A stretch of 44,747 bases of DNA from Actinomycetes bacterium (lineage in GTDB: Bacteria > Actinomycetota > Acidimicrobiia > Acidimicrobiales > Acidimicrobiaceae): contig JAJZCF010000005.1 in the NCBI GenBank assembly GCA_021846265.1, positions 1 through 44,747 of the forward strand, in the 5' to 3' direction. The notes below the pieces were generated by a model, which ran no database searches, was not told the origin of the DNA, and saw nothing but the letters and a program-made list of their open reading frames with translations. Position 1 is the first letter of the stretch; each line of letters begins with the position of its first letter. A program made the position numbers and the translations under genes. Below are positions 18,074 to 22,768 of this stretch, one piece after another.

Positions 18074-18800
18074 GCGAATCTTCGCTACTGCTAGACGACT
18101 GCTAGAACAGTTGAAGCATGATCCGCGAACAGTCCTGCTTCTTTTAGCCGTCCCTCTTGTGCTTATGATTCTCCTTCGGTATCTCTTTGGCTCGCAACTA
18201 ACCGAATTCAACCAGCTGGCCCCGATGCTTATAGCGCTTTTCCCCTTTACCATCATGTTCGTAGTGACATCGATATCGATGCTAAGGGAGCGCATGACCG
18301 GAACCCTTGAGCGACTCCTGACTTCGCCTATTTCGAAACTTGAAATACTTCTCGGCTATGGGCTGGGTTTTGGCATTTTGGCGGTTTTGCAAGTTGCACT
18401 CGTGCTCCTGGTCACCTTCGGGCCACTGGGCATGAAAACTAGTGGAAACCTTTCGATGCTTTTAGTCTTTTCGGTGCTAGATGCCCTAATGGGCACTTCC
18501 CTCGGATTACTTTTTAGCGCTTTTGCAAATTCTGAATTTCAAGCGGTGCAGTTTCTGCCTGCCTTCATATTTCCCCAAATGCTACTTTCTGGAATTTTTA
18601 TTCCGCGCAATCAAATGCCTTGGGTGCTTAGGTACCTTTCAGACATATTTCCGTTGTCGTATGCCATCGACGGCGCTTCGCGAACGTCTGCAAGCACTGT
18701 TTGGACCCTCGCTTCCAGTGTTGACTTATCGGTGGTCGCAATAGCAATCCCACTTTCACTTGCGCTTGGTGCGCTTACTCTCAAACGGCAAACCAGCTAA
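18063..18800 (+). CDS. ABC-2 type transporter permease
   Basis: Multi-TM ABC-2 permease: MLRERMTGTLERLLTSPISKLEILLGYGLGFGILAV, FLPAFIFPQMLLSGIFIPRNQMPWVLRYLSDIFPLSYAIDG; start overlaps the ATPase gene. Confidence 0.9.
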   Translation: MSSRRIFATARRLLEQLKHDPRTVLLLLAVPLVLMILLRYLFGSQLTEFNQLAPMLIALFPFTIMFVVTSISMLRERMTGTLERLLTSPISKLEILLGYGLGFGILAVLQVALVLLVTFGPLGMKTSGNLSMLLVFSVLDALMGTSLGLLFSAFANSEFQAVQFLPAFIFPQMLLSGIFIPRNQMPWVLRYLSDIFPLSYAIDGASRTSASTVWTLASSVDLSVVAIAIPLSLALGALTLKRQTS

Positions 18801-18809
18801 GTCAAACCA

Positions 18810-18830
18810 GCTAAATAAACATTGTTTAGC
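18810..18830 (+). terminator. hairpin GCTAAA...TTTAGC downstream of the ABC exporter
   Basis: 6 bp inverted repeat (18810-18815/18825-18830) immediately after the permease stop codon. Confidence 0.35.
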
Positions 18831-19104
18831 CTTTAAGGGGTCTCTCGACTGGCCCAGGCCTTCCCAAATACCTTCTACTGGTGGTCGCCAACCAAACTGA
18901 CCGCCTCAAAAAAGATAAGGCTGAAAGTATCAAGTCATCACCGGAGTGCCGCCAACTCTTACCATGACAACACCAAGTATTACTTGATCGTCTGACATAG
19001 CGCAACCTCAGTCCGAGCACAATGGCCACAACCTCAAAAGATAGCCTTTATAACAACTTATTGACGGCTTCGTGAAGGGCCGTCGTTGGTGCCCCACCCG
19101 CAGG

Positions 19105-19136
19105 GTCGGGAGCTAATACTGGCGGATGCTCCCGAC
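19105..19136. terminator. stem-loop with perfect 9 bp arms (GTCGGGAGC / GCTCCCGAC)
   Basis: Arms at 19105-19113 and 19128-19136, preceded by another IR GACGGC/GCCGTC (19063-19068/19079-19084). Confidence 0.4.
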
Positions 19137-19504
19137 AACCCCCTTGATAGCTAGGACGTCTTGTCGCACCGCCCAAGTCGGCAAAAAACTCTAAAGAGTG
19201 ACCGGTACAAATGTGGGTCGAGACGAGATAAGCGCTCGAGAACCGCAGCGACTAGCAGGATTACGCCAGTCCTGGTCCAGCTGAATCCAGCGCTCAATAA
19301 GTACCTAGGCAGGCCCGCTTTATTGCCAGTAGGGTTTCCGGCAAGAAATAGGCACTTACCCCCAGCCAAAGGAGCGGCCGCCATTCCCAGCCGCAAAAAA
19401 TCGTCAAGTGTAATGGGCTGAGAATCGAGTCCAAAACGGGTCGAGAAAACCGGCGAATAGGAAGTCACATGAGTGATCGCTATAGATCACTTTGTGGCAA
19501 CGGG

Positions 19505-19960
19505 TTAGCCGCCCGTGAGCTTATAGGAGTAGCTTCTGGACTGAAGCATGGTCACCGTAAGATTCGGATTCGAGGCGAGAGCACCTATAGAAGCGCAGCT
19601 TCCGCGAAATTCAACCTTCGAAATCTTTCCCGATGGACTATGAGAGATAACCAATGCCTCACACACTCGAACCCTTGCAGTTTGAGAGAGCTTCGCATTC
19701 GCGGTGGGAATAGTCGTCACGTGCTGCGAACCACTTCCCGAAGAATACCTCACAAGGGGCGCTGGTGAGTGGCTAGACGTTCCGCTCTGCCAAAGCAAGG
19801 CCAGCACCAACCCGATACCGAGAATCGAAGCATCAATTAAGGCTGCAATTACTCCTATGCGGTCTGATTTAGAAAACAGACCCTCTGATTCGTCGTAAAG
19901 ATACGATTCGTGCTCGCCCGTACTGTCCACTGAAGTCAAAGCAACCACACCCAATCCCAA
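19505..19960 (-). CDS. hypothetical single-pass membrane protein with exported C-terminal domain
   Basis: 151 aa ORF with one clear TM segment (IGVIAALIDASILGIGLVLALLW), then a Ser/Thr-rich linker and a small domain; no opposing stronger ORF. Confidence 0.4.
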   Translation of the reverse strand: MGLGVVALTSVDSTGEHESYLYDESEGLFSKSDRIGVIAALIDASILGIGLVLALLWQSGTSSHSPAPLVRYSSGSGSQHVTTIPTANAKLSQTARVRVCEALVISHSPSGKISKVEFRGSCASIGALASNPNLTVTMLQSRSYSYKLTGG

Positions 19961-20521
19961 ACATTGATCTACGCCGACCGCAACTACCCCACCACGAGAT
20001 TCGCCTTAGCAAAATCGGATTCAAAACACACGGGGGCGGCTTTCCGGCGCAGTTTTAACTGCCACTTGCTAGAAACGTATGAGCTCAAGCCAATATTTCT
20101 TAATAAGCTTTTCAATCAGGGGATTCGCTGTCCAAATCTCCTTATGCGGATGTTCAGGTGTGGACCCAAAGCCATATCAAGTGCAATTCAGGTCAAGTCG
20201 CAAATACAGATTGCGCCCGGCAAGGCCTTCGCTGAGCGCCTTTGTTTTTCAGCGGCAAGCGGCTTGGAGGTTAGGATCGTGCACCCCAACCGACGCGCCT
20301 TTCTGAAGCCCCTTCATCTCGAAATGGTCCTCCAATCACAAAAATGAACAAATTTGCCCCATCTACTTGGTGTTTCAGCAAACCTACAGCTATTTGGACG
20401 CCCCGATGGTGACCTATTTCTCTAGGTAAATACAGCACCAAAAGTGAATTATGTACTTAGTCAAATGAAATTAGACGAGCATAGCAACTAATCGAATATC
20501 ACTTACGGCGGAGGGCGAAGA

Positions 20522-21799
20522 ATGAGCACCGTGATTGTTATTGGAGCAGGAACCGCCGGTACGCTTGTTGCAAACCGACTAGCCAAACAGCTCTCTCCAA
20601 ACGACACAATTATCGCAATCGATCAGGACAATAGCCACCTATACCAACCCGGACTGCTATTTGTCCCATTCGGAAAAGCCAAGCCCTCAAAGCTGACACG
20701 GCCGAGAGCAGCACAGCTGTCACGGCGAGTGACCTATATTCAGGCTTCAGTTGAAAGCATCGACACGAAAGCTAATACGGTTTTTCTCAAGGATCGCTCT
20801 CCAATCCCCTACGACGTTGCGGTCATCGCATCGGGCTCCCGGGTCGTTACAGAGGAGACAGAGGGCCTCATCGGAGAGGGATGGCTAAAAGACGCCTTTA
20901 CGTTTTACACACTCGAAGGAGCAACCGCACTACGAGACAGACTTGCCAATTTTACTTCGGGCCGAATAGTCGTCAATGTCGTAGATATGCCGATCAAATG
21001 TCCCGTCGCTCCATTGGAGTTCTGTTTCTTAGTGGATGCTTTTTTTAGTGATCGCTCAACAAGAGACAAGGTAAAGATAACCTATGTCACTCCGTTGGAT
21101 GGCGCTTTCACCAAGCCCGTATGTTCATCGATACTTGGATCGATGCTTAATGATCGCAATGTAGAACTTATTACTGAGTTCAACACTGGAAGTGTCGATT
21201 ATGCAAGCAACACCCTCGTGTCGTACGACGGTCGGACGGTTCCTTTTGATATTGCGGTTTTAATTCCACCGCACGCTGGAGCGGAATTCATCTTTAAGTC
21301 ACCAGGCCTTGGCGACGAATTTGGTTTCATACCTACTGAGCCAAAATCGTTGGTATCTAAAGTGGCATCAAATATATTCGTTATTGGTGACGCCACTGAT
21401 ATCCCGGCATCAAAAGCCGGATCTGTCGCTCACTTCGAGGGTGAAGTGGTATGCAACAATGTTCTTCATTACTTAAAAAGCGAGCCTTTTGAGGAAACTT
21501 TTGATGGTCATGCGAACTGCTTTATCGAGTCTGGTCACAAAAAGGCAATGCTTATCGATTTCAACTATGAAACTGAGCCGCTGCCGGGCAAGTTTCCACT
21601 AAGAATCGGAGCTCCCCTATTGAAGGAATCAAGGATTAACCACCTTGGCAAGCTCGCATTTGCTTGGGTCTACTGGCATGTTTTGCTAAAAGGCAGAGAT
21701 ATCCCGTTGATTGGAAGTCAGATGCCGAAGTCAGGAAAACAATTTTCAACCAAACCGGTTCGGGAAGTAACGCCTACACAATCCCAGGAGAGCCATTAG
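20522..21799 (+). CDS. FAD-dependent sulfide:quinone oxidoreductase-like protein
   Basis: VIVIGAGTAGTLVANRLAKQL Rossmann motif, HLYQPGLLFVPFG, PIKCPVAPLEF cysteine motif, NIFVIGDATDIPASKAGSVAHFEG, GHANCFIESG second cysteine motif. Confidence 0.85.
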   Translation: MSTVIVIGAGTAGTLVANRLAKQLSPNDTIIAIDQDNSHLYQPGLLFVPFGKAKPSKLTRPRAAQLSRRVTYIQASVESIDTKANTVFLKDRSPIPYDVAVIASGSRVVTEETEGLIGEGWLKDAFTFYTLEGATALRDRLANFTSGRIVVNVVDMPIKCPVAPLEFCFLVDAFFSDRSTRDKVKITYVTPLDGAFTKPVCSSILGSMLNDRNVELITEFNTGSVDYASNTLVSYDGRTVPFDIAVLIPPHAGAEFIFKSPGLGDEFGFIPTEPKSLVSKVASNIFVIGDATDIPASKAGSVAHFEGEVVCNNVLHYLKSEPFEETFDGHANCFIESGHKKAMLIDFNYETEPLPGKFPLRIGAPLLKESRINHLGKLAFAWVYWHVLLKGRDIPLIGSQMPKSGKQFSTKPVREVTPTQSQESH

Positions 21800-21839
21800 A
21801 CGTTGCCGGAGGGCAACCGGTCAAAAAGGAGGATGAAAA

Positions 21840-22157
21840 ATGACAACCGCTAGTTACGTTGGCATTGAAGTTGAGCTCAATGACGAAGGGTTTTTCACCG
21901 ATCCCTCGGCATGGCGGGAAGAGATGGCCCCGATGATAGCAAAAGAGATGGGTATTGACGAACTAACTGACGAACATTGGCGGGTCATCAGATTCGTACG
22001 GGATCGATATCTTCAAACCGGTGGTGGCCCAAGCGTGAGAGTGCTGGGAAAGACCTCCGGGGTCGAGGTGAAGGATCTTTATCGACTATTCCCTAAAGGT
22101 CCAGCAAAGCAAGCGGCCAAAATTGCTGGTATCCCAAAGCCAGTCGGATGCATATGA
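21840..22157 (+). CDS. DsrC/TusE family sulfur carrier protein
   Basis: ELNDEGFFTDPSAWREEMAPMIAKEMGIDELTDEHWRVIRFVRDRY ... LYRLFPKGPAKQAAKIAGIPKPVGCI with penultimate Cys. Confidence 0.93.
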   Translation: MTTASYVGIEVELNDEGFFTDPSAWREEMAPMIAKEMGIDELTDEHWRVIRFVRDRYLQTGGGPSVRVLGKTSGVEVKDLYRLFPKGPAKQAAKIAGIPKPVGCI

Positions 22158-22197
22158 AAGGCAATAAAGCTTCATCAACATGCAAAAGGAGTCACAG

Positions 22198-22665
22198 ATG
22201 ACAGATTACATTCAAAAGATCTCGATAATCGTCTCCCAAGGATCCCTTGAGGGAATCTATCCCGCCCTGATCATGGCCAATGGGGCAAGATCGGAAGGAA
22301 TAGAAGCTAACCTATTTTTCACTTTTTTTGGACTAGACGCCATCAATAAAGACAGACAGGATCACATAAGACTGTCTAGTGTAGGAAATCCTGGTCTTCA
22401 CTTTCCAACCTGGTTAGGCGGTTTTCCCGGGATGTCCATGATCATGACACAGCACATGGAATCTAAAATGGAAAAGCTGGATATACCGCCAATACCCGAG
22501 TTTATTGAAATGATTTCCGATACCGGAGCTGGCCTGTACGCATGCAAGGCATCTGTTGACCTTTTTGGAATGTCGAAGGACGATTTCATTGATCAACTAG
22601 ATGGAATAATAACTGTGGGAGATTTCTATCAAATCGCTTCTGGCGGCCAGATGCTATTTACTTAG
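22198..22665 (+). CDS. DsrE2-like (DsrE/DsrF-like) sulfurtransferase protein
   Basis: ISIIVSQGSLEGIYPALIMANGARSEGIEANLFFTFFGLDAI..., single Cys in GLYACKASVDLFGM; AAAGGAG ribosome-binding site upstream of ATG 22198 (ORF track starts at 22180). Confidence 0.85.
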   Translation: MTDYIQKISIIVSQGSLEGIYPALIMANGARSEGIEANLFFTFFGLDAINKDRQDHIRLSSVGNPGLHFPTWLGGFPGMSMIMTQHMESKMEKLDIPPIPEFIEMISDTGAGLYACKASVDLFGMSKDDFIDQLDGIITVGDFYQIASGGQMLFT

Positions 22666-22700
22666 TTCGTCGGCGACCCAAAGTAGTCCGGCCCGATGGT

Positions 22701-22751
22701 CGGCCACGGTGGCACGAGTCCGCTCGTCCTCCCGGAAAATCACCGTGGCCG
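22701..22751. other. nested stem-loop (outer CGGCCACGGTG/CACCGTGGCCG, inner ACGAG/CTCGT)
   Basis: Perfect 11 bp inverted repeat 22701-22711/22741-22751, with inner stem 22714-22718/22723-22727. Confidence 0.6.
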
Positions 22752-22768
22752 GCTCAAAAACAGTAATG

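Follow-up and report, generated by a model that had tools for sequence, protein, structure and literature searches.

The window analysed here (44,747 nt, the whole contig of a 2.4 Mb draft genome that is 80.7% complete) carries three closely spaced plus-strand genes coding for a flavoprotein of the sulfide:quinone oxidoreductase (SQR) type, a DsrC/TusE-family protein and a DsrE2-like protein. Judging from sequence and from the known biochemistry of related proteins, we think it rather probable that the locus is a self-contained SQR/DsrE2/DsrC cassette for sulfide oxidation and sulfur relay, the catalytic activity, the sulfur transfer and the order of the steps all being predicted. All three ORFs of the original prediction were found at their positions:

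20522..21799, plus strand: gene for a predicted type III sulfide:quinone oxidoreductase (SQR), 425 aa; NF049943 and human SQOR match, conserved C160 and C333
21840..22157, plus strand: gene for a DsrC/TusE-family sulfur carrier, 105 aa; PF04358 and TIGR03342 match, CysA at C104
22198..22665 (likely start; alternative start 22180), plus strand: DsrE2B-like gene; PF13686 match, kinship with 2qs7/SSO1126

The SQR and DsrC genes are separated by 40 nt, and the DsrC and DsrE2 genes by 22 nt or 40 nt depending on whether the latter starts at 22180 or 22198. Each of the three genes is preceded by a Shine-Dalgarno-like sequence. For DsrE2, position 22198 is probably the actual start and is preferred because an AGGAG motif sits between the two candidate ATG codons, shortly before 22198; counted from 22180 the ORF covers 22180-22665 (+) and encodes 161 aa, and the numbering of C122 used below runs from that start. 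The motifs IKCPVAPLEF and GHANCF could be located in SQR, and the single Cys of DsrE2 is C122. The neighbours in the window are an ABC transporter upstream, and aroK-aroB, citrate synthase and CoA-transferase genes downstream. The window showed no dsr, hdr, tus or sox genes, and the earlier statement that no dsrAB, hdr or tus genes adjoin the locus agrees with this, as no sulfur gene was recognised among the neighbours. Promoter and terminator scans of the window gave counts not above shuffled expectation. Directly past the DsrE2 stop codon, at 22690-22760, lies an inverted repeat (GGCCACGGTG ... CACCGTGGCC), a stretch that is also kept behind the cassette in an Actinomycetes MAG (L034) and that possibly represents a terminator or other RNA element. 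On the 5′ side, about 1.7 kb (18800-20500) are devoid of any convincing gene, the rest of the stretch being gene-dense.

A survey with one genome per species found at least 80 related loci. Among the 80 loci listed, 77 have the SQR, DsrC and DsrE2 genes in the same order, and they come from about 13 phyla (Actinomycetota, Gemmatimonadota, Myxococcota, Planctomycetota, Bacteroidota, Chlorobiota, Bacillota, Chloroflexota, Acidobacteriota, Dormiibacterota, Cloacimonadota, Aminicenantes and Pseudomonadota). As the order recurs so widely, the cassette is not a chance arrangement, although single odd phylum placements may be binning errors, since many of the loci come from MAGs. The closest relative among the matches listed (GTDB genomes) is L034, with 80% SQR identity, and as L034 is an Actinomycetes MAG, an actinobacterial host is assumed for the window. 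Three loci depart from the order: in L053 the contig is truncated, L104 lies at a contig end, and L097 is an Amycolatopsis locus. The last of these is the only listed locus that has intact flanks yet no DsrC or DsrE2 gene, both being missing within about 8 kb, and it is also the sole one with Ser at the SQR C160 position, which could possibly reflect a correlated loss. Over the listed loci and the window, the cysteines are otherwise almost invariant (SQR C160 in 80/81 and C333 in 81/81; DsrC C104 in 78/78; DsrE2 C122 in 77/78). The three proteins also correlate in their pairwise distances (Mantel r of 0.80, 0.72 and 0.81, with 0/999 permutations as high), correlations that partly reflect shared host descent. 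Order, near-invariant cysteines and correlated distances among the listed loci thus bear out the view of the three genes as one conserved unit. No extra conserved operon member was found, the largest neighbour families, one of which is DUF302, occurring at 4 of the 80 loci listed.

In the profile search, SQR scored 543.3 bits against NF049943 ('type III sulfide quinone reductase, selenoprotein subtype'; cut-off 525). Its best PDB sequence match is human SQOR, in which Cys-bearing motifs align with C160 and C333, and these two residues, located in IKCPVAPLEF and FDGHANCF, are the only conserved ones of five cysteines. The AlphaFold model (mean pLDDT 88) gave human SQOR (TM 0.84-0.90) and then Acidithiobacillus SQR as top fold matches in Foldseek, with NDH-2 and flavocytochrome c ranking lower. 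The proposal that the flavoprotein is SQR-like has thus been strengthened by a curated family cut-off, an SQR fold and the presence of both redox cysteines, and the protein would be a type III SQR with a predicted sulfide-dependent quinone reduction. A very unlikely alternative, in our estimate, is that it is another FAD-dependent reductase of SQR fold and that the cassette handles thiols or selenium in some other way. Identity to the structurally characterised SQRs is just about 20-23%, and the family includes selenoproteins (PMC13188914), both of which would fit such a role; against it, both essential SQR cysteines are conserved, SQRs are ahead of NDH-2 and flavocytochrome c among the fold matches, and type III SQRs include members with demonstrated activity (PMC4378227). 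In seven SQR relatives, the C333 position is a TGA codon within GHAT-U-F, in agreement with the HxxU motif given for the selenoprotein SQR family (PMC13188914), and this exchange of Sec and Cys marks C333 as a redox position. There is no Sec read-through in the window SQR, in which the ORF is open and has a Cys codon at the Sec position.

The Sec-type SQR loci examined are without the cassette, and one has a two-Cys DsrC gene divergently oriented upstream. These TGA-containing genes (L011-L015, L021 and L023) belong to family f30, most of the genomes concerned carry a two-Cys DsrC and dsrA, and the Sec clade of the SQR tree is nested inside the cassette family. The genome of the window has in addition a distant SQR-like paralogue (29% identity) on contig C216 (L146:1-2186), whose start is lost at the contig end and which lies immediately 5′ of a class V aminotransferase resembling cysteine desulfurase. 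A plasmid search returned no close SQR, all matches being below 60% identity.

The DsrC protein was recognised by PF04358 (117.6 bits, cut-off 24.9) and by TIGR03342 (TusE/DsrC/DsvC; 101.6 bits, cut-off 53.5). Its tail, ...KQAAKIAGIPKPVGCI, carries Ala where CysB would be, and the penultimate C104 is the only Cys of the protein. The combination of CysA without CysB, as put forward in the original prediction, extends to the relatives: CysB is missing in all 77 complete relatives listed, where the position is occupied by Ala (69), Thr (4), Ser (3) or Glu (1), and never by Cys. With a single Cys, DsrC is unable to form the internal disulfide or trisulfide of the Dsr system. In DsrC/TusE proteins of organisms without DsrAB the CysB position is almost always Ala, Ser or Thr (PMC3397948), so the missing CysB alone is not new; the new element is the coupling of a CysA-only DsrC to SQR.

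In a phylum sample of 296 genomes, DsrC scored over the cut-off in 34, that is, in 19 genomes with the cassette and 15 others. Each of the 19 cassette genomes has exactly one DsrC, located inside the cassette, and in each of the 15 non-cassette genomes the top-scoring DsrC has both Cys residues. A profile search for dsrA gave no hit over the cut-off in the 19 cassette genomes, whereas 14 of the 15 genomes with two-Cys DsrC had one, indicating that the search works and that the two DsrC groups segregate. In the dsrAB search suggested earlier, dsrA proved to be missing from the window's own genome as assembled (80.7% complete) and from 18 further cassette genomes, and the canonical Dsr pathway was rejected on the same counts. 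The Sox pathway was rejected too, with SoxB over the cut-off in 0/19 cassette genomes. As to sHdr in the window's own genome, the CCG-domain matches in contigs C84 and C209, inspected by eye, read as a lone Fe-S reductase fragment and a LutABC-like lactate operon, respectively, and for that genome this candidate was set aside on inspection. TusA is absent from 8 of the 19 cassette genomes, 7 of these being at least 96% complete, and 13 of the 19 have no DrsE_2-family protein beyond the cassette copy. Because the three-gene order recurs across phyla without the usual partner genes, it probably represents a stand-alone unit of sulfur handling that has been overlooked.

Where DsrAB is lacking, DsrC/TusE proteins are usually given a role in tRNA thiolation. 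Such a biosynthetic relay would make the cassette DsrC a functional TusE feeding MnmA (tRNA 2-thiouridine) or another thiolation, which we consider unlikely, and SQR-supplied sulfane sulfur would then replace the IscS-TusA-TusBCD route, which appears equally improbable. Like E. coli TusE, with which it shares about 49% identity, the cassette DsrC has CysA only, the 19 cassette genomes are without dsrA, and DsrC-type proteins in which a Cys is lacking are usually taken for TusE (PMC8190135). However, the score against the TusE equivalog NF008562 was 96.5 bits, far below the cut-off of 191, and a 7-residue loop (KFGEEKG in E. coli) that is present in E. coli TusE and in 14 of 15 two-Cys DsrC is missing from 79/79 cassette DsrC, its use as a TusE hallmark being a reading of the present alignment rather than an established criterion. 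The cassette DsrC proteins also form one group (98% SH-aLRT, on few columns) apart from both two-Cys DsrC and TusE. Moreover, the cassette is patchy (19/296 genomes), unlike a house-keeping tRNA pathway, and the lack of TusA in 8/19 cassette genomes may likewise speak against a thiolation role. A plasmid search for DsrC returned gammaproteobacterial TusE/DsrC homologues only.

The DsrE2 protein matched PF13686 with 110.3 bits, and the SulfCarrDsrE2 equivalog NF047629 with 92.8 bits, below the cut-off of 210. Its nearest solved structure, by sequence as well as by fold, is SSO1126 (2QS7), which is a Sulfolobus DsrE2B, DsrE2A being distinguished by two strictly conserved Cys (PMC4175335). As it has just one Cys, C122, the window protein is DsrE2B-like and not DsrE2A. 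The closest characterised protein, the DsrE2B of Metallosphaera, reacted with none of the sulfur compounds tested (PMC4175335), and DsrE2 may accordingly serve as a scaffold instead of carrying sulfur. The Cys position is occupied by Tyr in one cassette copy and by Ser in one other. The copy with Tyr (L022, contig C26 of G182) belongs to a 9.9 Mb actinobacterial genome, in which a second, convergent SQR-like gene is found just downstream of the cassette.

In five tested Myxococcota-type loci, DsrC is fused behind an N-terminal DUF1641 domain:

L089:9205-10221, DUF1641-DsrC fusion
L107:9229-10194, DUF1641-DsrC fusion
L111:9241-10239, DUF1641-DsrC fusion
L099:1974-2936, DUF1641-DsrC fusion
L102:8840-9718, DUF1641-DsrC fusion

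In L148 a separate DUF1641 gene lies between the SQR and DsrC genes, and in L104 one follows SQR directly. Together, the fusions and the DUF1641 genes following SQR tie DsrC to an SQR-adjacent domain. While its claims on gene content were confirmed, the original prediction was silent on these fusions, as it was on the wide distribution, the Sec sister enzymes and the missing TusE loop. In L148 (2104-6435), the order SQR-DUF1641-DsrC-DsrE2 is followed by genes for an ArsR-like regulator, TusA and an FlpD (MvhD-type) protein, neighbours through which that lineage may be connected to a complex of the Hdr type.

Direct contact between the proteins, as suggested by the DUF1641-DsrC fusions and by the one-to-one conservation of SQR, DsrC and DsrE2 among the listed loci, would also be expected if the flavoprotein acted on a protein-bound substrate, oxidising, or with quinol reducing, the persulfide/thiol state of DsrC or DsrE2. 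The DsrC of the Dsr system is indeed a substrate of a membrane redox complex, DsrMK/DsrMKJOP (PMC6018796). Nevertheless, the internal disulfide or trisulfide on which that system relies is out of reach for a DsrC with a single Cys, and SQR retains the normal Cys pair for small substrates; we therefore regard such a reaction as improbable, and hold it just as doubtful that DsrC serves as the substrate instead of receiving sulfide-derived sulfur downstream.

The sulfur left on SQR is usually assumed to be taken up by small thiols. In the sulfide-oxidising relay that we favour, the type III SQR, membrane-associated by analogy with its family, would oxidise sulfide at C160/C333 and FAD, as known from SQR biochemistry, and its electrons would pass via FAD to the quinone pool. 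Protein acceptors, instead of or besides small thiols, would remove the sulfane sulfur of the SQR persulfide, these acceptors being DsrE2 C122 and/or C104 on the flexible C-terminal arm of the CysA-only DsrC. This step is modelled on Dsr biochemistry: in Allochromatium, DsrC receives sulfur from persulfurated DsrEFH and becomes persulfurated solely at its penultimate Cys (PMC3397948). With the sulfur moving in the putative order SQR to DsrE2 to DsrC, loaded DsrC would then hand it on to an acceptor of house-keeping or oxidising function encoded away from the cassette, which may serve tRNA thiolation, persulfide oxidation or general delivery. A likely role would be sulfide detoxification or supplementary electron donation, with the sulfane sulfur kept protein-bound. 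The more general proposition, that a protein-coupled SQR works with DsrE2 and a third-subclass, CysA-only DsrC, distinct from TusE as well as from canonical DsrC, in a stand-alone, widespread, DsrAB- and TusA-free relay, is put forward more tentatively.

A description of the SQR-DsrC-DsrE2 cassette was not found in the open-access literature searched. That is, the parts are known, and their conserved DsrAB-free, TusA-independent combination is apparently undescribed there. If the proposal is correct, SQR gains a protein acceptor and the orphan DsrC proteins gain a job, and it would also be a warning against calling Dsr or Tus pathways from dsrC/tusE matches alone. The hosts of the cassette include culturable Streptomyces, Lentzea and Vulcanibacillus.

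Several known systems share components with the cassette. In SQR-PDO clusters, such as yrkD-...-sqr-pdo of Bacillus licheniformis with its DsrE, TusA and rhodanese homologues (PMC9918477), SQR is likewise encoded beside likely sulfane-sulfur carriers, but these clusters lack DsrC, and no pdo, rhodanese, tusA or regulator gene is conserved beside the cassette. The DsrC of the Dsr pathway (Allochromatium, Desulfovibrio) belongs to the same PF04358/TIGR03342 family, and the best PDB matches of the cassette DsrC are DsrC subunits in crystals of dissimilatory sulfite reductase (2xsj, 2v4j), whereas the cassette DsrC has no CysB and the cassette genomes tested have no dsrA over the cut-off. With E. 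coli TusE it shares the DsrC fold family, the presence of CysA only and the identity given above, and differs from it by the absence of the loop, the separate clade, the sub-cut-off score, the lack of tus genes nearby and the linkage to SQR. The window SQR resembles the selenoprotein subtype of NF049943 in having the same two redox positions, an SQR fold and a score exceeding the cut-off, and departs from it in having Cys instead of Sec at position 333 and genes for DsrC and DsrE2 alongside. Finally, the archaeal DsrE2B proteins (Metallosphaera Mcup_0682; SSO1126), the top sequence and fold match, have a single conserved Cys like the window DsrE2; they are encoded next to DsrE3A, TusA and Hdr-like genes (PMC4175335), whereas the window DsrE2 adjoins SQR and DsrC.
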